Origin: Thraustochytrium sp. TN22
Lineage: Eukaryota; Sar; Bigyra; Thraustochytrida; Thraustochytriidae
Direction of reading: 5' to 3'
NCBI GenBank assembly: GCA_013306675.1
Contig: JABLUY010000288.1
Location: 1 to 42,178, forward strand
DNA: 42,178 bases
Under the pieces are notes generated by a model. That model was not told where the DNA came from and did no database searches. It saw only the letters and a program-made list of their open reading frames with translations. A program made the position numbers and the translations under genes. Each line of letters starts with the position of its first letter. The first letter of the stretch is position 1. This document shows positions 13,228-42,097 of this stretch, piece after piece.

Positions 13228-14610
13228 CTATGAGCTCCACTCCGAGAAGATGCTCTTGAAGGTCTCGTAGGAGGTCCAGGAGATGGCAACAGAGGGGGCG
13301 TGGACCATGAGGCGCGGGCGCAGGCCACGCGCGAAGCCCTTGAGGCCCTCCTCCTGGTAGACGCGCTTGGCAGTGTCGACGAGGCCATTGTAGCGAAGGG
13401 GCGCGTCGTTCTCCGCCGCAGCGCTGGAGAGGAGCGCGCGGCGGTCCGACGGGCTCTCCAAGAGCCGCCGAGCGTCGCTGGCGCGCAGCGAGGCGCCACG
13501 CGCGCCGGCGCGCGAGGACGTGAAGAGCTTGCGCTGCGAGGCGTCCAAGGTCGGGTTGACGGAGCGCGTCGCCGTGGTGGTGCCCTTGACGTAGGGGCCA
13601 AAGGGCGATGCGTTGCGCGCGTTGAAGTTGGAGAACTTGGTGGCGCGCGAGTAGTAGGGCGAGACGGTGACGCCGATGGAGGGCTGGCCGACGTGGCGCG
13701 CGCCGCGCTCAAGCGAGAGCGGCGTGGCGTAGCTGGTGAGCCCGGGCATGGCCGCGCCGGCGCGCATCTGGGACCAGACACCGGCGAAGAAGCGCATGCT
13801 GGAGCCGGAGGGCCCCATGCGCGCGGGGGCGCTGGCGGGGCCGGCGCCGGGGCCGCCGCTGCGCGAGGCGGCCTTGGCGGCCTTGGCGGCAGCCTGGGCC
13901 TGGAACTCGCGGAAGACGGACTGCGTCTGCAGGCGCGTCTTGACGACGTCGAGCGGGTTGGTGAAGGCGGCCGCGACGGCGCCGGAGAGAGCGCCGCTGA
14001 CGAAAAAGGCCGGCAGGTTGTACTCGTTGCCGGGGTTGAGCACCTTCTTGAGACTCTCGTTGGCCGACACCATGACGGCGGCGTAGGGCATGTTCATGAT
14101 GAGCGTGGTGGGGAAACTCAAAAACAGCGCACCGATGCCCTCGGTGCGCAGCACTGTCCGCGCGCAGTCCACCATGCCCTCGTGCAGGCCCAGCTGCAGG
14201 CGCTGCTTGATGACGTCCATGGGCGTCATGATCGAGTCGTGCGCCACGGTGGCGAGTACGCCGGCGGCGCCGGCGGCCACGGGCGTGTGCTCCTCGCCGT
14301 CCGCGCCGAAGCGCAGCTTGGCCTGCTCAAAGATGGAGAAGTAGGCGGCGTGTGCCGGCACGCAGGCCGTGAACATGGTCGACACGCCGCGCCACAGCCT
14401 GAAGAAGCCCTCCTGCTGCACGAGGCGCGCCACCGCGCCGCGCGAGGTGCCCTCTGTCTGCATGTGCGTCTTGATGGTGTCGAACGGGAAGATGGCGCAG
14501 TGCTCCGCGGCGCCCGCCATGCTGCCCGCCGCCGCGTGCACCACAAAGCTCGTCCCTGACTCTGGCGACCATTCCTCCCAGTCCTCCAGGTGGTCCCACG
14601 TCTCCGCCAT
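13228..14610 (-). CDS. Mitoferrin-like mitochondrial iron carrier with long insertion
   Basis: A 460-residue SLC25 carrier. The three signature motifs are FPFDTIKTHMQT (P42, D44, K47), TPMDVIKQRLQL (P130, D132, K135) and NPLDVVKTRLQTQ (P219, D221, K224). Mitoferrin-type blocks are PAHAAYFSIFEQAK at 85-98, TTLIMNMPYAAVMVSANE at 168-185 and GLRPRLMVHAPSVAISW at 429-445. These match the Mrs3/4 and SLC25A28/37 family, which import ferrous iron into the matrix for haem and Fe-S cluster synthesis. Usual length is near 300-350; here about 170 Ala/Ser/Arg-rich residues (about 232-404) sit between helix 5 and the matrix helix before helix 6, so they should face the matrix. All six helices and the PX[DE]XX[KR] residues are kept. 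The start is the ATG at 14610. Confidence 0.92.
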   Translation of the reverse strand: MAETWDHLEDWEEWSPESGTSFVVHAAAGSMAGAAEHCAIFPFDTIKTHMQTEGTSRGAVARLVQQEGFFRLWRGVSTMFTACVPAHAAYFSIFEQAKLRFGADGEEHTPVAAGAAGVLATVAHDSIMTPMDVIKQRLQLGLHEGMVDCARTVLRTEGIGALFLSFPTTLIMNMPYAAVMVSANESLKKVLNPGNEYNLPAFFVSGALSGAVAAAFTNPLDVVKTRLQTQSVFREFQAQAAAKAAKAASRSGGPGAGPASAPARMGPSGSSMRFFAGVWSQMRAGAAMPGLTSYATPLSLERGARHVGQPSIGVTVSPYYSRATKFSNFNARNASPFGPYVKGTTTATRSVNPTLDASQRKLFTSSRAGARGASLRASDARRLLESPSDRRALLSSAAAENDAPLRYNGLVDTAKRVYQEEGLKGFARGLRPRLMVHAPSVAISWTSYETFKSIFSEWSS

Positions 14611-16591: not shown

Positions 16592-17585
16592 TCAAGAGAG
16601 ATGATTGTCGCGGTCGAGGAGAGCGTCGTAATCAACGGGGCTAAACCAGGGCACCTCGGGCGAGGGCTTCAGCGCGTAGTCCCAGAAGAGCTCTTCGCCG
16701 CGCTGGACGGGGCGCGTGGTGAAGAAGATGACGGCAGGCAGCGGGTGGTCCGACGGGATGTCCACGGTGCGGCCCAAGGCGTCGTCCACGTACCAAGGGC
16801 CACATGCGACACGGTTCGGAAGCCACGGTGGTGTGGCCTCGGCACGCTGCTCTGCCGCGGAGTCTGTCGCGCCTCCGTTCTGCGCGCTGCCCTCGCTCAG
16901 GAGGAGATCCGCCCAGCGCAGCTCGAGGATCTCCACGGAAGGCAGCAGGCCCTTGGGCGGGTGGTTGATCATGTGGCCTGCGAAGACAGACGGCGCCTCG
17001 GGCTCGGCTGCGGCGTCCACGAGGCCGCCGCGCTGTACGAGGTAGAGCACGTACGGGTTGGAGGAGGCCGCTTCTCCGGCGACCACCTGTGGCTTGAAGG
17101 ATCCCTGTGCAGCGCAGTGCAAAGCGAGCGAGCGTTGTCAGCATCAACCCCCCTCTCCCTCTCCTCCTCCTCCCTCCCTCGCTCCTTTCCGTGCCTGCCT
17201 CAGCGCTGTGCCGCCGCTAGTTTGCAGGCAGCCCGTCCACTGGCAAGCTGATGCTCAACTCGTCACCCACATCGACGTCCACCAGGAGCGCGGGCGGGAC
17301 CGCTGGTCTGTACACGCCCGGGTAGAAACAGAGCGCCGCGTGCTTGGGCAGGTCCTCGCTCGCAAAGAGCCCGTTGCCGGCGTCCGCCATGGAGCTCGGC
17401 GCCACGTGCACGCGGGCCTCCGCGTCGCGAAGAGGGCCGCCGCGCGACGCCATGCGCGATGCCAGCGAGCGCGCCTCCGCTGTCACGGCCGCCCGCGGCC
17501 CGGCGCCCAGCTCTTCGCGCGCAGCGCCCAGCTGTAGGTGTCGCACCAGCTGCGCAGCGCGCCTTCGAAGCGCGCGCAGCGCCAT
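16592..17585 (-). CDS. SET-domain protein, two exons
   Basis: Exon one starts at the ATG at 17585. Exon two is 17104-16592, after a GCACAG acceptor. Two phase-0 donors work: GTGGGT at 17270 (intron 166 bases, 275 residues) or GTGGAC at 17240 (136 bases, 285 residues). SET features are split across the intron: NGLFASEDLPKHAALCFYPG in exon one; then NPYVLYLVQRGGLVDAA, the NH motif in FAGHMINHPP, and VIFFTTRPVQRGEELFWDY with the ELxxDY motif in exon two. SET proteins methylate lysines using S-adenosylmethionine. The substrate is unknown, and the short length with no pre-SET or post-SET domain suggests a non-histone target. The N-terminal 30 residues are Arg/Ala/Leu-rich and could be a mitochondrial leader. 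Without splicing, exon one stops at 17217 and the motif order is lost. Confidence 0.72.
17105..17240 (-). other. Intron of the SET-domain gene (donor uncertain)
   Basis: On the minus strand the intron ends GCACAG at 17105 and carries TGCTGAC as a branch-like site. The donor is either GTGGAC at 17240 or the better-looking GTGGGT at 17270; both are phase 0. Confidence 0.6.
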
Positions 17586-18201
17586 CGTCCAGCGCCGCGC
17601 CGCGCCACGCCGGCCTTGATTCGCGATTTGGTTGGAATCTACTTCGCTTCGACAGTGGACGGACAAGTGACTCTCAGAGCTGCTGGCGTTGCGGCGACGG
17701 GACCGCGGCCCGAGGCCGCGCCGCCGGAAATCAACATCGATGCTCGTTCTCAGAAGAGGCAGCTTCGAAACTCGCCTCATGCCCATGCAGTGGACGTTGC
17801 CGATGCAGGCAGGAAGACGAGCAGAATGCCTTTAGTGCGGGAGGTTGCAGGTTCACTTGAATGCTGCATGGCGCGACCTTTCTGGCAGTTTCTGCTCGAC
17901 CTCTGGTGCCGCCAGGCTCTTGTGTCCGCTTGAATGCATGGGCTCAGCTTTCTGCACGACCCATGCCGTGTTGTCACGCTTTTGCGTTCTCCTGCACGGC
18001 TTGATGATCTCGCTGCTCGATAGGTGCGCTGCAGTCACGTTCAACTTTGTGTGTTCACTTGAGCGCAAGGCCTAACCTTTGTGATCCCTTTGTGATCGAG
18101 CCGTGCGTGCTGACAGGCATCCGCGTCTGCTCGAGCGCGCGGTTGGACCTCGCATTTTCTTCCACACGCGCACCTGCCGCGCAGACGGCTACTTGCTCGT
18201 C

Positions 18202-22157: not shown

Positions 22158-24521
22158 ATGGCGCGCCTCTCTCTCATCAAGGCGCTCTGTGTGGCCGCCC
22201 TGGCATGCGCCCTCCCCAGTGGTTCGAGCGCTATGCGCATGGATGACGACGACATCTACAACGACGCGCGGCGGTCGCTCATCAAGAGCCGCCGCGGCCT
22301 TCAAGACGCCAGCAAGTGGATTGCGCAGGTGAACATCACCGGCTCCAATGCCACCAAGCTAGAGGAGGACCTCCGTGCCGCCATTACCGCGTACAAGCTC
22401 GATCACCCGGACGCCTACGGCGAAGATGATGCCGACAGCTTCGGCATCTCGGAGGCGACGGATTCATCCGAGACGGTCACTGTGCGCAGCGCCCAGATCA
22501 AGGATGATGGCTTCGTCTTTTTCGAGGGCGGCGACAACCTGGTCGAGTTTGTGCGCAGCCAGCCCCGCGTCATCAATGTTGAGCCCGATCAGGTTGTCAT
22601 TTTTGAGGGCGCCCCGGCGTCCTGGGGCCTGGACCGCGTCGACCAGGCCGACCTCCCGCTCAGCCAGGACACCTTCAAGCACTCGCACGACGGCGAGGGC
22701 GTACAGATCTACGTGATCGACACCGGCATCTATGTTGACCACACGGACTTCGGCGGCCGGGCCCAGCTCGGCAAGGAGTTCGTCTCGGAGTCCTCCCGCA
22801 TGGACCTGCACGGCCACGGCACCCACTGCTCCGGCACGGCAGGCGGCACCACCTACGGCATTGCCACGCAGGCCACCATTATCGGCGTCAAGGTTCTCAG
22901 CTCCAGCGGCTCTGGCTCCACCTCGGGCGTGATTTCCGGCATCGAGTGGGCCGTCTCGAACCAGGAGGCGAACTACGGCGGCAAGGCCGCCGTCATCTCC
23001 ATGTCCCTTGGTGGCGGCAAGAACACCGCCATGAACGCTGCCGTGCAGGCCGCCTCGGATGCCGGCCACATTGTCGTCGTCGCCGCCGGTAACGAGTACC
23101 AGGATGCCTGCAACGTTTCGCCCGCTTCGGCCGGTGGCTCGGCACGCAGCAGCTACGGCGTCATCTCCGTCGCTGCCACCGACAGCTCCGACAACCAGGC
23201 CTCGTACTCGAACTACGGATCTTGCGTCGACATCTTTGCCCCGGGCACCTCCATCACCTCCACTTGGTACAACGGCGGCACCCGCACCATCAGCGGCACC
23301 TCCATGGCCACCCCTCACGTCGCCGGCGTTTCCGCAATCCTCCTCGACAAGCACGACCACGACAAGCAGGCCGCCATCGACGAGCTCTTCGCGCTCGGCG
23401 TCTCAAACCGTGTGGGGAACTCCGCCTCTGATGAGACCCCGAACCTACTGCTCCAGGTCCCGCTCTACACCGGCCCGCCCACGCCCGCCACCAAGTCGCC
23501 CACGCCGTACCCGACCAACGCGCCAGAGGAGTTCAACGTGGAAGGCACCGTGTATACCCTGTACAAGTCGGAGTTCGGCGGCAACTGGCCCGAGGACACT
23601 GTGCTCACCGGCGAGATCCTTACGCTCGGCGATGAGGAGTACCTGTGTGAGGAGGACGGCCAGGACTTCACCGGCAAGATCGTCATCGTACCGCGTGGTG
23701 AGTGCAAGTTCTTCGACAAGGTCAAGACCGGTGAGACCCAGGGCGCCGTGGCCGTGATCATTCGCATCATGGTCCCCACTGACGCCGCCTTTTCGCCTGC
23801 CTACTACGGCGACGAGTCCACTGAGCTCTTCTCTGGCATGGTCAGCTACAACACCGGCATCTGGCTCTCCGAGTCGCAGGGCAAGTCGGCTTACCTGGGC
23901 TCGCCTTCGCTCCTTGGCCTCACGAACGCGCCCACGCTCGCGCCCGTGCCCACGCCGGAGCCCACCCCGTACCCGACGTCTTTCCCGACCTCGCGTCCCA
24001 CCGTCGCCTGCCAGTACATGACCAAGGCCGACTGCAAGGCGACCACGGACCGCTGCTTCTACAACAGGAACACGCGCGATTGCCTCGATGCCGACAGCGA
24101 CCTCATTACCAAGTGCACCGGTGCTACCTCCAGCTCCTGCGCGAAGGACTCCGACTGCGAGTTCGTCCAGCTCCCCTACGTCAGCAACCGTAAGGACTGC
24201 TACCTCATCGTCGAGCAAAACGTCACGACGCCCACCGACTGCACCAAGGGTGAGAAGAACACGCACGCTGAGTCTGAGGTGCTCTGCGAGAGCCAGGGCA
24301 GGCGCCACTGCACCGTTGAGGATATTATGCTCAGCGACACCGACAATGACTGTGGTTTTGACAACCGCTGGGTCTGGACGCGCCACTTCTGCGGCTCCGC
24401 TAACGACGAGAAGTACTACGCCGTGCGCAAGCTCTCCAACAACGGCGCCCCCTACATGAAGGCGCGCTGCCTTAGCACCACCAAGAAGCTCTGGACACGC
24501 TGCTGCGACTTGGACGACTAA
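22158..24521 (+). CDS. Secreted subtilisin-like serine protease (S8, proteinase K type)
   Basis: A 787-residue protein from an ATG in strong context (CAACCATGG). A signal peptide spans about 1-25 and an I9-like propeptide about 52-150. The catalytic domain at about 155-435 has Asp188 (VIDTG), His220 (HGHGTHCSGT), oxyanion Asn312 (AAGNE) and Ser382 (SGTSMATPHVAG). The active site is complete and of proteinase K type. A Thr/Pro linker (SPTPYPTNAP) leads to a protease-associated-like domain at about 457-590 (GKIVIVPRGECKFFDKVKTG). A second PT linker (about 591-618) leads to a Cys-rich C-terminal domain at about 619-787. PT/PTPYPT linkers are common in secreted stramenopile proteins. The likely role is extracellular protein digestion by an osmotroph. 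It is single-exon and well expressed by codon use. Confidence 0.95.
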   Translation: MARLSLIKALCVAALACALPSGSSAMRMDDDDIYNDARRSLIKSRRGLQDASKWIAQVNITGSNATKLEEDLRAAITAYKLDHPDAYGEDDADSFGISEATDSSETVTVRSAQIKDDGFVFFEGGDNLVEFVRSQPRVINVEPDQVVIFEGAPASWGLDRVDQADLPLSQDTFKHSHDGEGVQIYVIDTGIYVDHTDFGGRAQLGKEFVSESSRMDLHGHGTHCSGTAGGTTYGIATQATIIGVKVLSSSGSGSTSGVISGIEWAVSNQEANYGGKAAVISMSLGGGKNTAMNAAVQAASDAGHIVVVAAGNEYQDACNVSPASAGGSARSSYGVISVAATDSSDNQASYSNYGSCVDIFAPGTSITSTWYNGGTRTISGTSMATPHVAGVSAILLDKHDHDKQAAIDELFALGVSNRVGNSASDETPNLLLQVPLYTGPPTPATKSPTPYPTNAPEEFNVEGTVYTLYKSEFGGNWPEDTVLTGEILTLGDEEYLCEEDGQDFTGKIVIVPRGECKFFDKVKTGETQGAVAVIIRIMVPTDAAFSPAYYGDESTELFSGMVSYNTGIWLSESQGKSAYLGSPSLLGLTNAPTLAPVPTPEPTPYPTSFPTSRPTVACQYMTKADCKATTDRCFYNRNTRDCLDADSDLITKCTGATSSSCAKDSDCEFVQLPYVSNRKDCYLIVEQNVTTPTDCTKGEKNTHAESEVLCESQGRRHCTVEDIMLSDTDNDCGFDNRWVWTRHFCGSANDEKYYAVRKLSNNGAPYMKARCLSTTKKLWTRCCDLDD

Positions 24522-26375: not shown

Positions 26376-26414
<39 letters not shown>
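26376..26414 (+). repeat. 13-unit CAG array in the 5' flank of the Rrp6-like gene
   Basis: Thirteen pure CAG triplets end 38 bases before the ATG at 26453, so they are probably in the 5' UTR. The gene itself also carries CAG-rich polyGln tracts. Confidence 0.9.
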
Positions 26415-26415
<1 letters not shown>

Positions 26416-26452: not shown

Positions 26453-27568
26453 ATGAACCGGGGCGCCAACACGGCGGGAGGCAAGAAAGTGGGGGGTTCC
26501 AGCACGAGTGCCGGGAAGACCTCGAGTAATGGGCGTTCCTCGGGCATGCCGCCCGGCATGGTGAGCCTAAACGGGACCGGTGACCGGCAGCAGGATGATG
26601 ATGCAAATGCGCAGCCGCACAAGTCGCCATGGGCGCCCATCGACACGAGCCACTTGCAAAAATCGAACCGCATTGTCTCGAGCGACGGCAGCATCATGCC
26701 GCGGCCAGGGGAGGTGCCCAACCTGAGCCTGCGCAAGGGGATCGGGGGTTACGGTCTAGGCAGTCTCTCCTCGAGCCAGAGCGGGACCTCGGGCAGCCTG
26801 GGCGGCTTTGGTGGGCTCCACACCACGGTAGGCGGCTCGCGTGGGCTCGGCGCCACGGCCACTCAGGCCGCCGCGGCGGCGCCACCGCTCGCCCCGGCCT
26901 CCTCCACGGCCTCGCTAACTGGACCCGCACAAGGTGAGAGCGCCTTCGCTTCGGTGGGCGGCGGCGGCAAGCCGCCGCGTGGCAGTCGTCGGGACTTCAG
27001 CAGTAACAAGGGTGTCACCTGGGACTCGCGCGAGCGGTCCACCGGGAAGAAGCCCGCGCGCCACCAGGGCAGCTACCCGGGCAGCGGTGGCGGGCCCTTT
27101 GGAGGCGATCGCAGCGCTGCCGGCGGTGCTGTTCCTGCCTCTTCCATTTCCGCGGCGGCGGCCGCGGCGGCGCTCGCCGCCAAATCCGCGCCATTGCCGC
27201 CGTCGATGGACTCGTCCAAAGCGGCGCAACATCGAGCCTCGCTGGCCGCCGCTGCCGCGGCCGTGGCGCCCAAGGCGGATTCTTCCTCGCTCACTCGGCG
27301 CGACAGCGGCGCCAGGAGCGGCCTGCCGGACTTGAAGTCCGAGCGGCTCTTCGGAAGCCCTTCGCAGCAGCCGGAGCAAGACGCGAAGCCGGCGTCGCCA
27401 CCGTCGGTCGACGAGGCTGCGCCTTCAACCACAACGCGGGCGGAGACGCGCGCTGGCGCGCTCACGGCCGCCAAGGCAGCGGCCGCTGCGGAGCGCGCCA
27501 AGCGCGAGCAGGAGCGCCTTCAGCAACAGGAGCAGGAGCACTTTAGTCAGCGCTTGGCGCGCAAGGCC

Positions 27569-27606
<38 letters not shown>

Positions 27607-30307
27607 GCAGCAAGCGGCGACGGCGACGGCGACGGCAGCGGCAGCGGAGGCCACGGGTGAGCCGGTCGGCACCAGGGCCATCTCACCACAAGTGTCGGCC
27701 GCTAAGCCAGCATCAACGGTGCCTCCGGCAGCTGCGGCAGCGGCACCTGTGCCGCCCCCCGTGGCGAACAAGACGAGCGCCAAGAACGAGAGCGCACCTG
27801 GCGCAAGTGGCAAGTCGGCCTCTCGAGCGAGCGCCGCCAAAGAGATGAACTGGCGCAGTGGTGGCGGCGCGCCGCCAGCGGCACGGTCGGGGACCTCGGC
27901 CTTTGGGGGGACAACAAGCGCCGCGGCGGGAGCGGGTGCTACCCCGTCTACTGCAGGCGGTGATGCCAAGGGCCTCTCCATGCGAACGTCCATCTTTGGT
28001 CGCGGCGCGGCAGCTTCGGCTGCGGCGGGCGGCCCGGCCGGCGGCAGCGGCAGCGTCGGAGCAGCCGGCGAGACCCAGGCGACGGGCGGCCCGGCCGGTG
28101 GCGCCGCGGGCGGTGTGTCCCGAGAAACACACAACAGCGCGGTGCGCGACCAGCTGCAGCGCGCGCGCGCAGACCTGGACAAGGAGCGGCGCGCCGGCGA
28201 GGCGAGCAAGCGCGAGCTCGCGTCACTGCGAAAGGCGAATCAGACTTTGCAGGACCGCGTGGACCGCGGGTCCCATGAGAGCCGCGAGCTGCGCAAGGAG
28301 CTCGACTCGGTGCGACAGGAGCGCGACGCACTGAAGCGGCGCATCTCGCACCTCGAGTACGAGGCCGCCTCACACGAGATGAAGCTGCACGAGGTCAAGG
28401 CCTCGCTGGAGCGGGCCAAGCAGGTGCAGCAGCAGCAAGCGACACAGCTGCAGCAACTTCAGCAGCAGCAACAGTACCAGAAGCACAAGCAGCAGGAGGA
28501 TGACACGGTCCAGCAGCAGAAGCGTCAGCAACAGCCGCCAAAGCAGCAGCAGCAGCAGCAGCAACAACAACAACAACAGGCACAACAACATCAACAGCAA
28601 CAAAGGGATTCGCAGGCGCAGCGGCAGGCAGCGGCGGGGGCGCCGTTCGGGACCCATGATGCGCACCAGCGGCATGCAACGACGGCGTCCGTGGAGGGCC
28701 TCGTGAACGAGCTGGTCAAGTCGGTGGTGGAGAACTTCTCGGTTGCTGCGGTGTGGGGCGAGGCGTACGACCTGGATGAGGCGAGCGTCAAGTCATTGCC
28801 CGTCAAGGACACGGTGCGACCGCAGGCGCGCTTCGAGGATCCCGTGGACAACACGCAGGGACCCTTCGTGCCGAAGCTGCGGTACAAGCCGCACAACATC
28901 ACGCCGCTCAACCACGAGGTCCTGGTGAGCCAGCCTTGGGAGAACCCGTACGCGGACGAGATCAACAACATGCTGTACAACGGCGCGCTAACCGTCATGC
29001 AGCGGCCCAACAGCGTGCGCGGCTCGCACAGCCTGCTGCAGTACCCATTCAAGTTCATCGACCAGGAGTACCAGCTCGAAGAGCTGGCACGCATGCTGGA
29101 GACCTCAGACCTTAGCGAGGCCGGCATCGCCATGCAGAACCACTCCTTCCGTTCGTACCAGGGCTTTTTGTGCCTGCTGCAGATCTCGACGCGAGACAAG
29201 GACTTTGTCATTGACACGCTCGGGCTGCGCTCCCACATGTCGCTGCTGGCGCCCTTTTTTGCGAACCCGGACATTGTCAAGGTCTTTCGCGACGCGGAGC
29301 TGCCGGTGCAGTGGCTGCAGCGTGACTTTGGCATCTACATCGTCAACATGGTGGACCTGGCCGTGGCTGCGCGCATGCTCGAGCTGCCCAGCACCTCGTA
29401 CGCCTTTTTGCTCAGCAACTACCTGGGCGCCGAGCTCAGCCTGGACGAGGCTGGCACGGACTGGCGCCAGCGCAGCCTGACCTTCGAGCAGCTCAAGTAT
29501 GCGCAGCAATTCTCGCACTACGTCCTGGACGTCTACGATCACATCCGCTTCCACGCGTCAGAGGAGACGATGCGCAAGGTGGTCTCGCGCAGCGCTTCCA
29601 TTGCCCTGCACACGTATCAGAAGCGACCCGTCACGCAGGAGACCATCGCCGCCAAGCTTGCCGAGCTCCATGCCTCGCGCAAGGGCGAGGCACCTCTCTC
29701 GCACCTGCAGCGCAGCCTTTTCGCGGCGCTCGCGCACTGGCGCGACCTCGTCGCTCGCATCCGCGACGAGTCCGTGGACTACGTCATGAATGACGACGTG
29801 CTCTACAGCCTGGCCAAGCTCGGCCCCACCACCTCGCAGCAGCTGCAGCGGGCCATTTCGGCCGCGCGTCGCCCGGTCGCGCCGCTCCTCATGGACCTGC
29901 GCGGCTCCGTCTTCTTTGCTATTGCCCGCGTCCTGGATCAGCCGCCGCGCCCCGCGCATCGCTCCGCGTCGCCCCCGGCTTTTGCGCCCTCTCGCCAAGT
30001 CGGTGCCGGCTCGCTTGACGAGGCCGACGCCCACCAGGCTACGCCGCCGCAGCGTCCCAGCTCCGCGCACGCCCTGGGTCACCACGCTCACGCTCGGCAG
30101 CACCACGGTGTCCCGCACCATCATCCACACAAGCACCATCATCATCACCAGCAGCACCAGCAGCACCAGCAGCAGCAGATGCAGCAGCAGCAGCAACAAC
30201 AACAGCATGCGCAGAATCACCAGCACGCCGGCATGCCCAAGCGCCCGGCGCGTCCGCCGGGTCTCGAGCGCCAAACCATCGGCTTCGGCTGGTTCTCGCC
30301 CAGCTGA
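26453..30307 (+). CDS. RRP6: Rrp6/EXOSC10 homologue lacking all four active-site acids
   Basis: A 1,284-residue single exon. The N-terminal half is Ala/Gly/Ser/Gln-rich with 15 Gln at 373-387, then a coiled coil at about 563-660 and a Gln-rich block at about 658-720. The Rrp6 core follows: DNTQGPFVPKLRYKPHNITP, then NPYADEINN, an exonuclease fold at about 850-1040 (FRSYQGFLCLLQISTRDKDF, QWLQRDFGIYIVNMVDLAVA) and an HRDC-like domain at about 1083-1150 (HWRDLVARIRDESVDYVM). In EXOSC10 the first motif is DLEHHSYRS; here it is AMQNHSFRS, so Asp-x-Glu reads Ala893 and Gln895. The motif II Asp is Pro951 and the motif III Asp is Phe1020, while the motif III Tyr (Y1016) remains. Rrp6 trims RNA 3' ends with the nuclear exosome; this copy should be unable to bind its metals. 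It may be a scaffold or RNA-binding subunit. The tail is His/Gln-rich. Confidence 0.9.
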
Positions 30308-30999: not shown

Positions 31000-32871
31000 A
31001 TGAGCGCGATGGCGATGGTGGCGCGGCGGCCAGTGCTGGGGCGGCGCGTCGCGGCAGCGTCCCTGGCGCGCGGCGGCGTGCTGCGCGGGCTGAGCAGCGC
31101 GGCGGGGCCGAGCAGCACCCCGGGCACGGATGACGGGCGCGGCAAGTCGAAGACGAAGTTCTGGGGCTGGGAGCGCAAGATCGGGTCGCCGTCCGGAGGC
31201 CTGCCCGACTTCGTGGAGCACTGGAACAGGGACCTCTTCAAGAAGGTGGGCGTCGGCATGGTGGTCGGGTCCGGCATGCTAGGCCTCGCGTGGGGCCCCT
31301 CGCTGGGCGCCCTCGCGGCCGTGGGCGTGACGGCCGGATACTGGGTCGTTGGCCTGCGCGACATGGAGCAGACGCACCACACGATTCGCCGCAACTTCCC
31401 CGTGCTGGGCCACGCACGGTACCTCTTGGAGTCGGTGCGGCCCGAGATCCGGCAGTACTTTGTGGAGGACGACAACGAGGGCAAGCCGTTCAGCCGCGAG
31501 CAGCGCAGCATCGTGTACCAGCGCGCCAAGGGCATGTCGGACACTCAGCCCTTTGGCACACGGCGCGACGTGTACACAGAGGGCTACGAGTGGGTGAACC
31601 AGTCCATTTGGCCTTGCGAGGTGGACGAGGACAAGAAGCGCGTCAAAATCGGCAACCACGACTGCAAGAAGCCCTATTCGGCCTCGCGCTTCAACATCTC
31701 CGCCATGAGCTATGGCGCGCTCAGCGACAATGCTGTGCTGGCGCTCAACGAGGCCGCCAAGATGGGCAACTTTTACCACAACACGGGTGAGGGCGGCGTG
31801 AGCCGCTTTCACCTCCAGCCCGGTGGCGACATTGTGTGGAACATCGGCACGGGCTACTTTGGCTGCCGCGCCAAGGACGGCACCTTCGACAAGGAGCAAT
31901 TCAAGGATCGCGTCGCGCACCCGAACATCAAGATGGTGGAGATTAAGATCTCGCAGGGCGCCAAGCCTGGCCACGGCGGCATGCTACCCGGTGTCAAGGT
32001 GACCGAGAACATCGCCGAGGCGCGCGGCATCCAGGTTGGCGAGACCTGCAACTCGCCGCCCGCGCACAGCGCCTTTTCGGACGCGCGTGGCCTTGTGCGC
32101 TTCATCAGCCATCTCCGCGAGCTGTCGGAGGGCAAGCCCATCGGCTTCAAGCTCTGCATGGGCAAGCCCACCGAGATTGCCGCCATCATTGGCGCCATGC
32201 GCGAGATGGACGTCTACCCTGACTTTATCACCGTCGACGGCGCGGAGGGCGGCACCGGTGCCGCGCCCTCTGAGTTCTCCAACCACATTGGCTTTCCGCT
32301 CATGGACGCCCTGCAGATTGTCAACAACATGCTCGTTGGCGCCGATGTGCGCGACAACGTCAAGGTCATCGCCTCCGGCAAGGTTATCTCCGGCTTCTCG
32401 CTCGTGCGGGCGCACGCGCTCGGCGCTGATGTGTGCAACTCCGCGCGTGGCATGATGTTTGCGCTTGGCTGCATTCAGGCGCTCAAGTGCAACACAAACA
32501 AGTGCCCCACCGGCATCACCACGCTTGACCCGGACCTCATGGCCGGCCTCAATGTGCCTACCAAGGCCGAGCGCGTTCGCCGCTACCATGAGAAGACCCT
32601 CGTCAACTTTTACGAGATCGTCGGCGCCATGGGCCTCTCCGACCCGCGCATGCTCACCCCGACCCACGTCATGCGCCGCACCGCCGGCGGCACCTACATC
32701 CTCAGCTATGGCGGCATCTTCCCAATGCTCCAGCCCGGCGCGCTCCTCTCGGGCGCCGCCGCCGACCACCCCTCCAACCTCCAGGCCTTTTGGGACCAAG
32801 GTCAGCAGCTTCTGCGCGGCAAGCGCATCAAGAGCTTCCCGCTCACCTTCAAGAACGCCTCTGCGCAATAG
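31000..32871 (+). CDS. FMN glutamate-synthase-like oxidoreductase with mitochondrial-type leader
   Basis: 623 residues from the ATG at 31000. The first 35 are Arg/Ala/Ser-rich with no acids, as in mitochondrial leaders, and a hydrophobic hairpin at about 80-120 suggests membrane attachment. The GltS FMN-binding barrel runs from about 205 to 600: SASRFNISAMSYGALS, NTGEGG near 261-266, QGAKPGHGGMLPG near 318-330 and VDGAEGGTGAAP at about 411-422. Cys491, Cys497 and Cys502 make Cx5Cx4C followed by PTG, the 3Fe-4S pattern of glutamate synthase (compare CPVG). The glutaminase and GXGXG domains of full GltB are absent. It most resembles bacterial stand-alone 'FMN-binding glutamate synthase family' (YerD-type) proteins, whose reaction is not settled. 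Bacterial descent is possible but codon use is native. Confidence 0.88.
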   Translation: MSAMAMVARRPVLGRRVAAASLARGGVLRGLSSAAGPSSTPGTDDGRGKSKTKFWGWERKIGSPSGGLPDFVEHWNRDLFKKVGVGMVVGSGMLGLAWGPSLGALAAVGVTAGYWVVGLRDMEQTHHTIRRNFPVLGHARYLLESVRPEIRQYFVEDDNEGKPFSREQRSIVYQRAKGMSDTQPFGTRRDVYTEGYEWVNQSIWPCEVDEDKKRVKIGNHDCKKPYSASRFNISAMSYGALSDNAVLALNEAAKMGNFYHNTGEGGVSRFHLQPGGDIVWNIGTGYFGCRAKDGTFDKEQFKDRVAHPNIKMVEIKISQGAKPGHGGMLPGVKVTENIAEARGIQVGETCNSPPAHSAFSDARGLVRFISHLRELSEGKPIGFKLCMGKPTEIAAIIGAMREMDVYPDFITVDGAEGGTGAAPSEFSNHIGFPLMDALQIVNNMLVGADVRDNVKVIASGKVISGFSLVRAHALGADVCNSARGMMFALGCIQALKCNTNKCPTGITTLDPDLMAGLNVPTKAERVRRYHEKTLVNFYEIVGAMGLSDPRMLTPTHVMRRTAGGTYILSYGGIFPMLQPGALLSGAAADHPSNLQAFWDQGQQLLRGKRIKSFPLTFKNASAQ

Positions 32872-33556
32872 AGAGCAAGCAAGGTCTGTCAGACACAGGT
32901 CCAGCCGCTAACTTACAGCTAGGCCTCTCAGACTCTAGATTTAGAGAGTCAGAGAGAGAGAGAGAGAGAGACGCGATGCAAGCCGACTGTTGAGCACGAG
33001 TCCACAATTCTGGGCGCATTGGCGGTTTCCACCTCCCCTTCCCCCCCAAAAGCAAGTCATGTTTCCCTTCAGCTTATCGATCTTGCTCGAGCTGGCTGGA
33101 GCCAAGAGCGCGGGGATGCGTCGATTTGTCACACGAGACAGCAGACTTTGCGGACTTCGGAAGCAGAATACCGCGGCAAGTGAGCCGTGCAAGCTAGCGA
33201 AATGCCCTGGCCTGACTACCGCAACTTCGCCTTTTATTAATTACTCCTCCTCAGGCTGGACCTGAGAGGAATATCTCCATTTTGCTCGCAGGCAAAAAGG
33301 AAGGCTGGACGGAGACTCTGGTAAGCGCGCCCCTCTCCGATGCCGTTCACTGTCAATGCGATCAGCCAGGCTGCGTCTTGTCTTGGTGGTGGCTCCCAAT
33401 GGTCGCGTCTTGCCGACGCATGACCGACGCCTTGCCTTGTTTTTGCCTCCTTCGTCGACCCCTCGTCAATCGACGAGGTCCAAACTCGAAACCACAAAGG
33501 CATAGCCTACTACTAGTAGGCCGTCGAGGTTGAGTCAGGAGCCTCGGCGCGCGGAG
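32872..33556. other. Intergenic spacer with GA run and 17-bp hairpin
   Basis: 685 bases between plus-strand genes. An AG dinucleotide run spans 32951-32971. The middle is lower in GC and includes TTTTATTAATTA near 33232. A perfect inverted repeat lies 36 bases before the next ATG. No gene is seen. Confidence 0.55.
33505..33521. promoter_or_regulatory. Perfect inverted repeat just upstream of the cyclophilin gene
   Basis: GCCTACTA-C-TAGTAGGC has 8-base arms with one central base. It ends 35 bases before the ATG at 33557, so it may act as an operator-like site or a 5' UTR hairpin. The arms resemble those of the hairpin at 30650-30666 (TACTA/TAGTA). Function is inference only. Confidence 0.55.
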
Positions 33557-34432
33557 ATGACGGGCAGCACGGCGGCGGTGGCGGCGGCCGCTAGCGGCGA
33601 GGCGGGCGTGGCGGAGGATCAGCCGCCCCGCGCGCTGGATGCGCAGCCGGACCTGTCCAAGGCGGTGGGCGTCACGATGCAGGTCAAGCTCAAGGAGACG
33701 GGCGCGACGGAGACGGTGCGAATCGAGGTGTACCCGAACATGGCGCCGCGGGGCGCGGAGCGCTTTCTAGAGCTGGTGGACGCCAAGTTCTACGACGACG
33801 CGTGCTTCTTCCGCGTCATGAGGGAGTTCGTGGCGCAAATGGGGCTCCCGGCGGATCCGAAGCAGCTGGTGGGCTGGAACGACATCAAGGACGACCCTGT
33901 GCTTGGGACGAACCACCGCGGCTGGATCACCTTCGCGGCCACGAGCATGCCGAACTCGCGTTCGACGCAGATCTTCGTAAATTACAAGGACAACCACGGA
34001 CTCAACGCGCACGGCTTCGCGCCCTTCGCCAAGGTGGTGGACAACATGGAGGCGCTCGACCACCTGACGGAGATGCGCGACGGGCGCAACGCCCCGTCAC
34101 AGGTGCGCCTCCGCGCGCAGGGCAACAAGTACCTACTGAAGCAGTTCCCGGACGTCTCGTGCGTGGTGACGATGCGCCGTGACGACCTTAGCTTGACGAG
34201 CGACACGGACGCGCTCGCCGCGGCCGTCGAGGACGCGACTCTGCCGGGTCTCCATGCGGACTCCTCCGAGTCCGTGCTCTCCACGAGCGATAGCAACTTG
34301 GGCGGCGCGCCGTCGGCCGACGCCGGCACGGGCAGCATCTTCATGGCCGGCTTTTTGCTGCTGGTCTTCCTCATGGTCTTGGGTGGCTGCCGCCGCGGCG
34401 GCTTCTCGCGCGCGCGCGACCTCAGCGCCTGA
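33557..34432 (+). CDS. Tail-anchored cyclophilin-type peptidyl-prolyl isomerase
   Basis: 291 residues from the ATG at 33557; the frame is open to 33530, but only a TTG lies there. The cyclophilin fold spans about 35-200: VYPNMAPRGAERFLELVDA, FFRVMREFVAQMG (equivalents of CypA Arg55, Phe60 and Gln63 kept), GTNHRGWITFAATSMPNSRS, TQIFVNYKDN and LNAHGFAPFAKVVDNM. The Trp121-equivalent region has no Trp, as in bacterial-type cyclophilins that bind cyclosporin poorly. A Ser/Asp linker leads to a membrane helix at about 260-277 and a short basic tail (CRRGGFSRAR). No signal peptide is seen, so tail anchoring with the catalytic domain in the cytosol is likely. It is expected to catalyse proline isomerisation of clients near the ER or another membrane. 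Confidence 0.9.
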   Translation: MTGSTAAVAAAASGEAGVAEDQPPRALDAQPDLSKAVGVTMQVKLKETGATETVRIEVYPNMAPRGAERFLELVDAKFYDDACFFRVMREFVAQMGLPADPKQLVGWNDIKDDPVLGTNHRGWITFAATSMPNSRSTQIFVNYKDNHGLNAHGFAPFAKVVDNMEALDHLTEMRDGRNAPSQVRLRAQGNKYLLKQFPDVSCVVTMRRDDLSLTSDTDALAAAVEDATLPGLHADSSESVLSTSDSNLGGAPSADAGTGSIFMAGFLLLVFLMVLGGCRRGGFSRARDLSA

Positions 34433-35735: not shown

Positions 35736-36592
35736 CGCAGCCTCACGCAGCGACAGGCAGAGCCGAGCGAGGCCAACACTGCACTGGCATTGCACTGCAC
35801 TGGCATCCGCCGGCCGGATAGGCCGCGGCTTGGGCCGCTTCGCCGCCTCTGCGCGCGGCGGCGGCGGCGCTCGCGCGCCACCCCCCGTATCCGGGACCTG
35901 CCGCTTACATCCGCGGCGCGCGCCTTGTCGCCGCGCGGGCGGCCGCCGCGGGGGGCTAGCCTGGGAGTAGTAGCCGCTGCGGGGGCGCGCGCGGCGCTGG
36001 GCGGGGAGCGCAGAACTCCCGCAGCGATGAGGGAGAGGGGTACACATGACAGACGGCCAGAAGGCGGGTGCGGGAGGGAGGGCGCCAGCGGGGAGAGGCG
36101 CGGGTGCGGGGCGCCGCGCGCGGGGGAGGGGACGGGCGGCCTGCGGGCCGCCGCCACCACAGACAGCGCGCGCGTGCAGCCGGGTGTGCGAGGGTGTGCG
36201 GCGGGGACCCGGGGCGCGGCCATGGCGGTGCGAGCAGATCCGGTGAACGGATCGAAGCGACCCGAAGCCAACTTGAAGGAGGTCGAGCTCGAAACGCGAG
36301 CAAAGTCCTCGGCGCAGGCGCGACCGCGCGAGTCCTGCCGGCCGGCAGGCGCGACCGCGCGCGGCTCGGCGCGGCGCTGCGAGGCGCGGCGCGGCGCGGC
36401 TCGGCGCGGCGCGCGCGGCAGAGCGGCGCGCGGCGGGCGCGGCGGGCGCGGCGGGCGCGGGGGCGGCGGCTGGCTCCCGCGCCGCCTGCTCGGTGGCATC
36501 GCGCATTGCGCGGCGGCGGGCGGGCGCGCGCGCGCTGCGCGGCGAGCGCGGCGGCGGCGCAGGAGGGAGGAGGCAAGGGGGAGCGAGGCGGC

Positions 36593-39133
36593 ATGAGGCT
36601 GCTGCAGAGGCCCGGCGTGCCCAGGCCGCCGCAAAAGGCCCGGGACGCGGAGCAGAGCGCGCACGCCAAGGGGAGCAGGTCGCTGGAGCAGTCGGCGCCG
36701 GCGCAGCTCAAGCAGGCCATTATGGACGTGAAGCAGTACTTGGTGCCCGCGGCGCAGCAGAACGGCGCCGGCGTGGCCAAGGATGCGGGCACCGCGAGGG
36801 CGGCAGAGCGCGCGGGGGCCGCCAGGGCCGCGGGCGGGAGCGCGCTGCCGGCGCCCGAGGCGCGCAAGGCCAGGCGCAACAGCGCCGGTCTCGTGCCCAT
36901 CAGGGTGCCGCGCCGCTCCGGTGCGAGAGCCGCGGCCGCGGCCGCGCCTCAGGATGCCCGCAAGGGCGCCGGGGTTCCGGCAGCGAGCAGCAGCAGCCAC
37001 TGCAGCAGCCAATGCAGCAGCAGCAGCAGCAGCACCACCACCACCACCACCACCACTACGACCAAGGGGGGCGCCGCCGCCGCTGCCGCCGCCGCTGCCG
37101 CCCGCACGCCCAAGGCAGAGGAGGCAGACAGCACATGCCCGGGCCGAGGAAGCGGCTCCATCCAAGCTAGGCTGGCGAGCGCCACCGGTCCTTTGGGCTC
37201 CGCGCGCGTCGAACCGGTGCCCGCGGGCGTCGCTAGACCGCCCGTGGTCGTGGACAAGAAAGAGTCCATCGAGAACCTTCCTGCAGCGGGAATCCCTCTA
37301 CAGCAGGCACCATCCCAACAGCCGAGTCAGCCGCACGAAGCGACACCGCACGGGGCGCAACCTGCGAAAACAGAGCACACGGTGGAGGCAGCGTCACAGC
37401 CGCGGCGGCGAAACAGCAGCCGAGCTGTAGGCAATTACGTGATCGGCGAAACGCTGGGCGAGGGCACCTTCGGCAAGGTGCGCCGAGGCATGCACACGCT
37501 AACGGGCGAGACCGTGGCTGTCAAGGTCCTGGAGAAGAGCCGAATCCGGACCGAGGGGGACCTGACGCGCGTGACGCGCGAGATCAAGATCCTCAAGCGC
37601 GTCCGGCACGGCAACTGCCTCCGCCTGCTGGAAGTGATCGATACGCCGCGACAGATCTTCCTCATGATGGAATATCTAGACGGCGGCGAGCTCTTCGACT
37701 ATATCGTGCAGAAGCACCGCCTCACCGAGCAGGAGTCGTGCGAGATCTTCTCCCAGATCATCGACGGCGTGCAGTATCTGCATGAGAACAACGTTATTCA
37801 CCGCGACCTCAAGCCGGAGAACCTGCTCATGCAGCGGCACAACGACGGCAGCTTCCTCGTCAAGGTGGCGGACTATGGCCTGAGCAACACGAACGAGGGC
37901 AACGTGCTGCTGGCCACCGCGTGCGGGTCGCCTTGCTACGCGGCGCCGGAGATGATCGCCGGGAAGAAGTACGACGGGACCAAGTCGGACGTCTGGAGCC
38001 TAGGCGTCGTTCTCTTCGCGCTCGTCGCAGGCTACCTGCCGTTCGAGGACAACGACACGCCCAAGCTGTACCGCAAGATCCTGCACGCCGACTACAAGTG
38101 CCCTTCACACCTGAGCAAGGGCATCAAGGACCTTCTCGCGCGGGTCCTCGAGGTCAACCCGCGCAAGCGTCTCGATATTGCCGCCATCCGCAAGCATCCG
38201 TGGATGCGGCGCCACCTTGGCATGTCCAATATGCGCGAGAACAACTCCTACCGCTCGTTCATGAGCCTGCAATCCTTGGAGGAGGAGCAGGACCCGAGCG
38301 GCGGCCACGTCGAGGTGGACGAGCGCATCCTCAAGGATGTGGTCGCATCCGGTCTCGACCGCGCCTACGTTTGCCAGAGCATCCTGGACCGCAAGCATAA
38401 CTCCGCCACGGCCGCCTATTTCCTCGTCGCCGAACGCTTCCGCCGCCTCGAGCAGCGCGGCCTGCCGCTCAAGCCGCGCAAGCTCGTCACCTACCCGGCG
38501 CCCGAACCCGACCTTCAGGCCAACGAGGACAGCTCCTCGTCCCTGCCCGGTGCCGAGGGCGCTTCCCTGGCCGCGGAGGAGACCGAGAGCAAGCCGGAGG
38601 ATGCACTCCCGAGTGAAAATTCTTCGTTTGGGTCTGACGCAGACTCCAGCGCCACCCAGGCTCTACTTAAGCTCCATCGGGACAACGGCGCTCACCTCCC
38701 TCTGCAACAGGCACAGAAGAAGCCCGACGGCGAAGTTAAGCCCCGCGCGGGTCGGCGCGCGACCATTGCCGCGCCCCGCGCGAGTGTATCTATTCCCATC
38801 AACCCGTCGCAGCAGCAGCCGCAGCAGCGCCGCGCCTCCATCGCGCTGCCGCCCGCGCAAACGCGCCCGCTCGACCTTTCACCTGTCGGCGCCCACCTCG
38901 CGCCGGGGCTCGCCGCCCGTGAGGCCCTGAACCACGCACGCGAGGCAGTCGTGCCTCAGGCGCAGGCCGGGCCGGTCGACAAGGTGGAGCATGTGCAGCG
39001 CGCAGCCGCGCCGCCCTCTTCCGAGATCGACGGCGGCCGTGCCTTTGGCTCGACCACCATGAAGGAGGTCTCCAAGGAAAAACTCGATGCCCTCCTCCGC
39101 GCCACGCACCTGCGCCCCGAACCGCCCAAATGA
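36593..39133 (+). CDS. SNF1/MARK-like Ser/Thr kinase with DYG motif and UBA-like domain
   Basis: 846 residues from the ATG at 36593. The first 280 are low complexity (Ala, Ser, a run of Thr near 148-157). The kinase domain spans about 282-545: glycine loop LGEGTFGKVRRG, Lys311 (VAVKVLEK), HRDLKPEN at 403-410, DYG at 427-429 in place of DFG, and activation loop ATACGSPCYAAPEM with Thr442 as the likely upstream-kinase site. GSPxYxAPE and the LARVLEVNPRKRLD block place it in the CAMK/SNF1-AMPK-MARK group. A UBA/AID-like helix set follows at about 575-625 (VDERILKDVVASGLDRAYVC). The C-terminal 200 residues are disordered with basic Ser patches (GRRATIAAPR, QRRASIALP). It probably acts in energy or polarity signalling. 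Tyr in DFG is tolerated in some active kinases, so activity is likely. Confidence 0.92.
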   Translation: MRLLQRPGVPRPPQKARDAEQSAHAKGSRSLEQSAPAQLKQAIMDVKQYLVPAAQQNGAGVAKDAGTARAAERAGAARAAGGSALPAPEARKARRNSAGLVPIRVPRRSGARAAAAAAPQDARKGAGVPAASSSSHCSSQCSSSSSSTTTTTTTTTTKGGAAAAAAAAAARTPKAEEADSTCPGRGSGSIQARLASATGPLGSARVEPVPAGVARPPVVVDKKESIENLPAAGIPLQQAPSQQPSQPHEATPHGAQPAKTEHTVEAASQPRRRNSSRAVGNYVIGETLGEGTFGKVRRGMHTLTGETVAVKVLEKSRIRTEGDLTRVTREIKILKRVRHGNCLRLLEVIDTPRQIFLMMEYLDGGELFDYIVQKHRLTEQESCEIFSQIIDGVQYLHENNVIHRDLKPENLLMQRHNDGSFLVKVADYGLSNTNEGNVLLATACGSPCYAAPEMIAGKKYDGTKSDVWSLGVVLFALVAGYLPFEDNDTPKLYRKILHADYKCPSHLSKGIKDLLARVLEVNPRKRLDIAAIRKHPWMRRHLGMSNMRENNSYRSFMSLQSLEEEQDPSGGHVEVDERILKDVVASGLDRAYVCQSILDRKHNSATAAYFLVAERFRRLEQRGLPLKPRKLVTYPAPEPDLQANEDSSSSLPGAEGASLAAEETESKPEDALPSENSSFGSDADSSATQALLKLHRDNGAHLPLQQAQKKPDGEVKPRAGRRATIAAPRASVSIPINPSQQQPQQRRASIALPPAQTRPLDLSPVGAHLAPGLAAREALNHAREAVVPQAQAGPVDKVEHVQRAAAPPSSEIDGGRAFGSTTMKEVSKEKLDALLRATHLRPEPPK

Positions 39134-39448: not shown

Positions 39449-42097
39449 TCACGTGCGCTGTCCGCCACCCATGAAGCCTCCCGGGACGTTGTAGTTGAAT
39501 CCACCAAAACTGATGTCATTTCCCCCGCTGCTGCCCATGCCCGAGCCGCCCATGCCGCCAGAGCCCACAATGACGCTCGCGTGCGATGAATGGTAATGGT
39601 GCTGCTGCTGATGCTGCTGATGTTGTGGACGTTGCACGGGCTGCCCATGCTGTGCGTGACCCGGGGCGCTGGAAAAGCCGGGCGGCGCGCGCCGAGGCCG
39701 CGAGCTCTCAGACGCCGCGCCCGGACTCAAGTCTGCGCTGGCTGGACTCGAGGTGGCGGGCGGCAATGCCGGGAGCAGGTCCGCGGGCGAGAGCAAGGTG
39801 CCCGAGGACGCCGTCGAGGGCAGCGTGGAGGTCAGCATGGGGGTTGGCGCATGCACGTGCGCAAAGTGCATTCCGGGCGCGTGTTGCCAGCCATCGCGCT
39901 CGCTCGGCGGCGTACCTGATGTGCTGCCGTTTGCGCCGTTGCTGGTCGTGCTGGTGGTGCTACGGTTGCTGGTGCTACTGCTGCTGCGCCCGAAAGAGTC
40001 TGGCCCAGCCAGCGCGCCCGGAAAAACGCCCGCAGAATTGCCGCTGAGGCTCGCGTTCCGGCCGGACGACGAATATGGGGACGGCGCAAAGACGGTGTCC
40101 AGGTTCAGCCTCGGCGCCGCGTAGGCGCTCATGCCGTCGCTGGACTCGGTGTACGACCGCCGATGGTGCGTAAACACGAGCGAGTCCGTGTCCAGGCCGC
40201 CCAGCGCGCGCGACCGCTCCGAGGCGGACACCTCATCGTCTCGCGTCCCAGTCGAGGCGGGCGCGTGCGATAGCGGTGCTAGCGCTGGCGCCGCTTGGGC
40301 CGCGGCCCCTGTTTCCTCGCCGGGCCTGCGCGGCTGCGGCTGCGGCTGGGAGTGCGGTCGCGGCGGCGGCTGCAAGGCCGTGGGCACGAGCAGAATGATC
40401 TCGTCCTCGGGGCCGGCGTCCTCCGGCGCTAAGCCAGCATCCTGGGGCGGCGTCTGCCGTTCTGGGCCCGCTGGGTTCGGCATGCTCGTGGTGCGAGGCG
40501 AGCCATCCAGCAATACCTTGGCCGATGCTTCGGCCACGGCCGCGCTGCCTTCGTCCGGGCAGCCGTAGGTGGCGTCAAAGGGAAGCACGCGCGCGCACGC
40601 GTCGTCCTGCGAGAGCCGATCGCAGACCACGCACACGCGGAGCGCGCGCTCGGAGGCAGCCCTAGCGCGATCCTCGGGCGAGGTCGTTTGCAATGCCGTC
40701 AAGGTGCCTTGGTCCTCGCGCTGCGCCACGGCGGCGTGGCCGCGGCTTCCGCGCAGCGGCACAAAGTCCTGAAGCTCGAGGTCCTCCCACAGCACAGGGC
40801 TCGACACCGCGCACGAAGTGGCCGGCGCGTCTCCCGCAGCTGCCACAAGCCCGGGCCACAGCGTTTCAATGGCCTTCCACAGGGCCGCGCCCTTGCTGAG
40901 GTCGAGCGAGGCGTGCGCCGTTGGGCCGCTCGCCTCCATGTCGCAGCGCGTCCACTCCAAAAAGACCGAGACGGCCGCAAGAGCCTCGCCTGGCGCGGAT
41001 GCGCGCGATGCCGCGTCCGCAAGGTGAGCGGCGAAGGTCGTCACGACCGCAAAGGCGAGGTCCTCCGCAGCCGACACTGTGGCGGCGCCGCCCCCCTTGG
41101 CGCGTGCCGCGAGCACCGCCGTGATGGCCGCCACGATCAGCGCCAGGCGCACCTCCTTGTTCAGCGCTGACTTGCGCACGAGCAGCGAGAGGTCGGCCAG
41201 CACGCGGCGCTGCAGGTCGGCACGCGACACGCGGTCATCATCTCGCAGCGAAATGCGCCCCAGCACAAGCCCGTGCAGTATCACAAAGCGGGCGGAGAAG
41301 TCCCGCAACAGCTCGCTCCGCTGCGCGCCAGAGATGGGCGCGTTGGCTGGGAGCTGCGGCTGCGACAGGAGCGCGCGCTTGCGCGCGCTCTTGAGCACCA
41401 TTTCATAGAGCATGCCGACATTGGTCTGCGCCGTTGCAAAGGGCTCCGAGACGTGCAACGCCATGAGGTAGCGAAAGAGCGCCACCACCATCTCATTGCG
41501 GTACTGCGCCAAGACGGCAAGCTGGTTGTGCGGGTTGCCCTTGCGCGGGTACGCGCGCAACGCCTCGCGATAATGCCCCGCAGCCACGTCGAAGGACTTC
41601 TCCTCGCGGGAGACGTCGTTCAGCTCGCGGTAGCGCGCCAGATCGCCGGAGAAAAGGTGGCAGCGGTGAATGGAGGCCGCCAGCAGCTCGCGGCGCGCAG
41701 CGTCCTCGCGTGGCGTCTCGTTGAGCTTGCGTGCGAGCCGCGTCAGCAGCGCCTCATACTGGCTAAGTGCCACGTCCAGGAAATGCAGAAAGGCGCCGCA
41801 CAGCTCGCGCTGTCGCTGTGCTGCCTCCCGCGCCTCGGCCGCTTGCGCCGGGCGCCCGTTGCTCGCGAGCTGCTTGCGGAAGCCCTCGATGCGCTTGTAG
41901 TAGCAGTAGCGCCACAGCTGGTCCTCGACGTCTTTGCGCGCCGCCAGCTCCGGGTCGCCCAGAATCACCTCCTCCAGCCGCGCGCGCGCCTGCTGGGCCA
42001 CGCGCTCCACCGTCTCCTCTCCATCATCCTGCCGCGACCGGTACAGCTTGCGCAGCTTCTCCACGTGCTGCCCGCCCAGCGCCAGGGACCGCTCCAT
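39449..42097 (-). CDS. EST1/SMG7-like protein with 14-3-3-like TPR domain
   Basis: 882 residues from the ATG at 42097. The N-terminal helical region leads to the EST1/SMG 14-3-3-like TPR fold at about 140-250: HLFSGDLARYRELND near 145-160, then AAGHYREALRAYPRKGNPHN and LAVLAQYRNEMVVALFRYLM. This DLxRY...A..YY.A...P..G.P.NQLA pattern is diagnostic for SMG5/6/7 and EST1. Further helices follow to about 440, ending in the LWEDLELQDFVPLRG block typical of SMG7/EST1. The rest is Ser/Pro/Gln/His-rich and disordered, with no PIN nuclease domain, so it is SMG7-like rather than SMG6-like. SMG7 binds phosphorylated UPF1 and promotes decay of nonsense-containing mRNA; EST1 relatives also bind telomerase. 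The gene is whole, with its start 81 bases from the window end. Confidence 0.85.
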   Translation of the reverse strand: MERSLALGGQHVEKLRKLYRSRQDDGEETVERVAQQARARLEEVILGDPELAARKDVEDQLWRYCYYKRIEGFRKQLASNGRPAQAAEAREAAQRQRELCGAFLHFLDVALSQYEALLTRLARKLNETPREDAARRELLAASIHRCHLFSGDLARYRELNDVSREEKSFDVAAGHYREALRAYPRKGNPHNQLAVLAQYRNEMVVALFRYLMALHVSEPFATAQTNVGMLYEMVLKSARKRALLSQPQLPANAPISGAQRSELLRDFSARFVILHGLVLGRISLRDDDRVSRADLQRRVLADLSLLVRKSALNKEVRLALIVAAITAVLAARAKGGGAATVSAAEDLAFAVVTTFAAHLADAASRASAPGEALAAVSVFLEWTRCDMEASGPTAHASLDLSKGAALWKAIETLWPGLVAAAGDAPATSCAVSSPVLWEDLELQDFVPLRGSRGHAAVAQREDQGTLTALQTTSPEDRARAASERALRVCVVCDRLSQDDACARVLPFDATYGCPDEGSAAVAEASAKVLLDGSPRTTSMPNPAGPERQTPPQDAGLAPEDAGPEDEIILLVPTALQPPPRPHSQPQPQPRRPGEETGAAAQAAPALAPLSHAPASTGTRDDEVSASERSRALGGLDTDSLVFTHHRRSYTESSDGMSAYAAPRLNLDTVFAPSPYSSSGRNASLSGNSAGVFPGALAGPDSFGRSSSSTSNRSTTSTTSNGANGSTSGTPPSERDGWQHAPGMHFAHVHAPTPMLTSTLPSTASSGTLLSPADLLPALPPATSSPASADLSPGAASESSRPRRAPPGFSSAPGHAQHGQPVQRPQHQQHQQQHHYHSSHASVIVGSGGMGGSGMGSSGGNDISFGGFNYNVPGGFMGGGQRT

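Follow-up and report, generated by a model that had tools for sequence, protein, structure and literature searches.

Can a protein that keeps the exonuclease core of Rrp6/EXOSC10 but none of its metal-binding acids be the product of a working gene, and what might such a protein do? The question is raised by a 1,284-codon open reading frame of Thraustochytrium sp. TN22 (GenBank assembly GCA_013306675.1) on contig JABLUY010000288.1, all 42,178 nucleotides of which were analyzed and are here called the window. A preliminary description, made from the letters of the window, had read the frame as an Rrp6/EXOSC10 homologue turned pseudonuclease. Judged from its sequence, the encoded protein is indeed very likely a pseudonuclease.

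The homology is agreed on by Pfam, phmmer, and alignment with the paralogue. An exonuclease (EXO) domain is followed by an HRDC domain (Table 1), and the nearest relatives are Rrp6 proteins: in a phmmer search against all solved chains, the top 13 of 23 matching sequences were Rrp6/EXOSC10, the best being Trypanosoma brucei RRP6 (E value 1.9e-52). A structure model of middling confidence, the alignment of which took in 13 loci from the best 80 of 517 relatives, matches human and trypanosome RRP6 best; an earlier model from two sequences was poor (predicted local distance difference test, pLDDT, 40) and was not used. The 517 relatives, of which the best 80 were kept, came from the second scan of a contig collection, and the organism names listed were enterobacterial. 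Viral contigs and a first scan of the same contig collection gave no relatives, an absence that says little for collections of viruses and prokaryotes, and no match was found when viral contigs were scanned with RNase D. The pre-exonuclease segment shows the pattern RPQ..F..PVDN...PF typical of Rrp6. Both this segment and HRDC had been considered intact; that holds for the former, whereas HRDC is present with a partial Pfam match.

DEDD enzymes require the metal-binding acids, and it is these that the window protein lacks. The columns of the acids D, E, D, and D are occupied by A893 (codon GCC at 29129), Q895 (CAG at 29135), P951 (CCG at 29303), and F1020 (TTC at 29510), and the sole survivor among the catalytic residues is Y1016 (TAT at 29498), in the column of the motif III tyrosine. 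The replacements are those named initially, and the same residues were found in all alignments: with T. brucei RRP6 and human EXOSC10 by phmmer, with the active Rrp6 of the same genome (on contig C70) by MAFFT, and in further MAFFT alignments of five sequences, including human, yeast, and T. brucei, and of three sequences, including Escherichia coli RNase D, which likewise has D, E, D, and D at the substituted positions. Because the yeast chain comes from a crystallized mutant altered at motif II, its residue there was scored as D.

The losses are concentrated at the active site. Twelve acids are invariant in the four canonical Rrp6 proteins, and the window protein loses exactly the metal ligands and retains the other eight (4/4 vs. 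0/8 lost; P = 0.002, one-sided Fisher test). It retains 50 of the 74 invariant residues overall, and half of the 24 replacements (12/24) are mild by BLOSUM62. Within EXO, 11 of the 17 invariant residues that lie no more than four positions from a catalytic one were lost, in comparison with 11 of 42 elsewhere (P = 0.007; the distance was our choice). The loss extends beyond the four acids, as the histidine and glycine beside motif II have become R946 and D947, and the lysine, tyrosine, and glutamine in the loop preceding DWR have become L997, E999, and A1000. Restoring D, E, D, and D would need at least 1 + 1 + 3 + 2 base changes; with at least seven changes needed and the residues flanking each motif aligning, sequencing error or a frameshift is implausible. 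On this pattern of replacements, the protein is very probably unable to bind the two catalytic metals and hence to hydrolyze RNA.

The frame itself looks like that of a working gene. An in-frame stop lies 26 codons 5' of its ATG, and an open frame of 1,284 codons has a probability of about 7e-13 in random sequence of the same composition (about 1.3e-4 for 410 codons, roughly the core). The frequency of G or C at third codon positions in EXO is 0.87, and the codon choice of residues 771–1180 correlates with that of the active Rrp6 gene at 0.94, consistent with the full open frame and native codon use described earlier. All of this points to a working gene, short of proof of expression or selection. 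Active-site loss, a retained fold, and signs of coding constraint mark a pseudonuclease derived, in the manner of Ssd1, from an exosome-type exonuclease, and the window protein shows all three.

The genome (37.9 Mb in 453 contigs) is GC-rich, the 2-kb bins of the window ranging from 61.5 to 74.4% GC, and it contains six matches to the EXO family PF01612. Besides the window protein, these include a canonical Rrp6 on C70 with PMC2NT, EXO, and HRDC and all catalytic residues present, in agreement with the second, active copy that had been proposed; the remaining four (on C63, C143, C155, and C222) are other DEDD-type proteins, which by eye, without alignment, retain the catalytic acids. As C70 carries an active Rrp6, the window protein is a diverged and very probably dead paralogue and not the sole Rrp6, and loss of the genome's only copy is ruled out. 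A genome search with the window core at E 0.001 found only itself and C70, the latter at 36%, and a recent copy was rejected on this result. Having a second homologue is not unusual in itself, since several protists have two or three Rrp6 homologues according to passages of PMC3282835, which leave aside their activity status.

The window protein is 31–35% identical to each of four Rrp6 proteins (33.2% to C70), which share 40–45% mutually, and its branch is 1.2–1.6 substitutions per site vs. about 0.6–1.0 for the other four. In trees of five or six sequences, it does not group with C70, and support is low (22–69). An old duplication and a fast-evolving copy would both fit, and simple descent from the C70 gene is neither supported nor excluded by the trees.

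Outside the core, the protein departs from the canonical layout. The PMC2NT domain of Rrp6 binds C1D/Rrp47, and C1D belongs to the Sas10/Utp3 family, of which the genome has two matches. We found no PMC2NT in the window protein at E up to 0.1 and, in the genome, only that of the C70 paralogue, although a very diverged copy could escape either search. For the His/Gln-rich tail, comparison with the active paralogue gave nothing significant, and solved structures gave no match at E 0.1; a 49-residue tail segment of C70 was also without a meaningful match. In the N-terminal arm, the best 56-residue windows of a heptad scan begin at residues 611–615 (the scan was our own, not a trained predictor), and Pfam matches of the 556–670 stretch to coiled-coil families were all below the cut-off. 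CAG/GCA trinucleotide and related repeats within the frame (27569–27612, 28426–28563, and 30115–30207, forward strand) accompany the polyglutamine and His/Gln runs of the protein, and a pure CAG run (26376–26415) lies just 5' of the ATG.

Table 1. Features of the Rrp6-like gene and its neighbors in the window
Feature	Position	Strand	Details
Whole open reading frame, very likely Rrp6-like pseudonuclease	26453..30307	+	1284 aa, ATG to TGA, no intron needed
N-terminal arm, about residues 1-780	26453..28792	+	low complexity; polyalanine and polyglutamine runs; without PMC2NT match
Coiled-coil-like stretch, about residues 556-670	28118..28462	+	simple heptad scan
Pre-exonuclease segment, residues 788-828, RPQARFEDPVDNTQGPFVPKLRYKP...	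28814..28936	+	phmmer and MAFFT alignments
DEDDy-type exonuclease (EXO) domain PF01612, residues 868-1032	29054..29548	+	Pfam, 100.1 bits
Motif I: A893 and Q895 replacing D and E	29129..29137	+	codons and alignment
Motif II: P951 replacing D	29303..29305	+	codons and alignment
Motif III: Y1016 retained, F1020 replacing D	29498..29512	+	codons and alignment
HRDC domain, residues 1086-1133	29708..29851	+	Pfam, 39.4 bits; profile positions 1-48 of 68, partial match
Short C-terminal tail	29915..30304	+	130 residues, 22 His and 24 Gln
DHHC palmitoyltransferase	6053..7336	+	Pfam
Mitochondrial carrier	13228..14610	-	Pfam
tRNA-Ser (CGA)	17524..17600	-	
Subtilase with PA domain	22158..24521	+	Pfam
623-residue open reading frame	31000..32871	+	sole Pfam match: glutamate synthase conserved region, 282.7 bits
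Cyclophilin	33530..34432	+	Pfam
Protein kinase	36068..39133	+	Pfam
EST1/SMG5-7-type protein	39449..42097	-	EST1_DNA_bind 93.2 bits, EST1 45.1 bits

What, then, might a dead Rrp6 core do? We give about an even chance to an RNA-binding adaptor, in which RNA or protein would be held by the EXO-HRDC core and self-assembly or partner binding would fall to the long N-terminal arm, with its coiled-coil-like stretch and polyglutamine. Such a protein would protect, sequester, or deliver RNA. As neither PMC2NT nor a canonical tail was found, it would mostly act away from the exosome site at which Rrp6 is normally tethered through C1D. In WLQ[K/R]D, near an RRP6 site of T. brucei in passages of PMC3928423, the basic position is kept as Arg. 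Several observations weigh against the adaptor. The K-x-YQ loop preceding DWR, near the T. brucei site in the same passages, has lost both its invariant lysine and its YQ (L997, E999, and A1000), and the net charge of EXO-HRDC (−5) is about that of the active paralogue (−6); the canonical RNA path may thus be changed. The coiled coil was seen in the simple heptad scan and by no other means, and the tree branches indicate fast evolution.

The preliminary description had named an exosome scaffold, an RNA-binding subunit, and a regulator of an active paralogue as possible roles. As a scaffold, a dead EXO-HRDC could dock on the S1/KH cap and open the channel to help Dis3. The retained EXO and HRDC would suit this, RNase PH-domain genes are present in the genome (11 matches to PF01138, with exosome ring and PNPase types counted together), and inert yeast Rrp6 partly restores decay according to section 11 of PMC5322736. 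According to the same section, however, Dis3 activation requires the Exo/HRDC module together with a C-terminal lasso. The scaffold idea is weakened because PMC2NT went undetected and the 130-residue tail is without a significant match in the active paralogue or among solved structures (a weak test, given the C70 segment), and we consider it unlikely. We think still less of a regulator that competes with the active Rrp6 for RNAs or partners or controls it in a mixed dimer: a paralogue with canonical residues does exist, but the window protein shares no tail with it, has no detected PMC2NT with which to compete for C1D, and gives no sign of contact with it.

Two further explanations question whether the protein is a maintained pseudonuclease at all. 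Fast evolution would be expected of a pseudogene caught early in decay, yet 1,284 codons are free of stops and frameshifts despite 33% identity to the paralogue, and the eight non-metal acids, 50 of 74 invariant residues, and native codon use have been kept; early decay is improbable. Least credible of all is a nuclease still active through a rearranged metal site: D947 and E949 do provide acids near P951, beside motif II, but Ala and Gln stand in motif I and Phe in motif III, and each of the three motifs has lost ligands.

Among known proteins, the Rrp6/EXOSC10 proteins of C70, human, yeast, and T. brucei share the pre-exonuclease segment, EXO, and HRDC and give the best sequence and structure matches, and the differences lie in the metal acids, PMC2NT, arm, and tail. 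EXD1, to which the protein had been compared in principle, is an inactive protein of the PIWI-interacting RNA (piRNA) pathway that has TDRD12 as its partner and is not known to carry HRDC; its structures (5fiq and 5fis) show 16% identity in structural alignment and similarity of fold only, and Rrp6 matches far better. The fungal pseudonucleases of the Ssd1/Dis3L2 lineage are a parallel in kind: among fungi, this Dis3/RNase II-type 3'–5' exonuclease lineage has lost its active site on at least four occasions, and Ssd1 binds RNA (passages of PMC8097288), although the fold is that of RNase II, not DEDDy, and the conserved part is the cold-shock domains. In the Egalitarian ExoHD, according to passages of PMC13186709, the putative catalytic residues are about 15 angstroms from the RNA and dispensable; they are, however, retained, LOTUS-like domains and an XAD module are present in the protein, and identity in structural alignment is 15%. 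On our best reading, that of an RNA-binding adaptor on a dead Rrp6 core, the window protein would be of the same general kind as Ssd1 and Egalitarian. RNase H-like proteins without catalytic residues are known in general (passages of PMC3985635). No dead Rrp6 paralogue was named in the titles and abstract openings of open-licence literature on inactive Rrp6 paralogues or plant RRP6L, which is no proof of absence from print, and the passages of PMC4161302, PMC5735172, and PMC3610620 make no mention of a dead plant RRP6L.

The window also carries, about 9 kb from the pseudonuclease gene, an EST1-type protein that we take to be of the SMG5-7 group. A bacterial-type origin of the 623-residue frame is a guess.

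Inert Rrp6 mutants in yeast indicate that Rrp6 has duties beyond RNA cutting (section 11 of PMC5322736). If a naturally dead Rrp6 has been kept beside an active one, these noncutting duties could be studied where evolution has already split them, and the case would show that RNA-binding pseudonucleases can arise on the DEDDy side of the exosome, as Ssd1 did on the RNase II side. More speculatively, and with doubt outweighing confidence, the sequence raises the idea that dead Rrp6 paralogues form a stable lineage in an unstudied group of eukaryotes, in which a coiled-coil/polyglutamine arm would have turned the EXO-HRDC core into an RNA adaptor or condensate former independent of the exosome. 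This would be a second, independent route, besides that of Dis3L2/Ssd1, from an exosome-type nuclease to an RNA-binding regulator.
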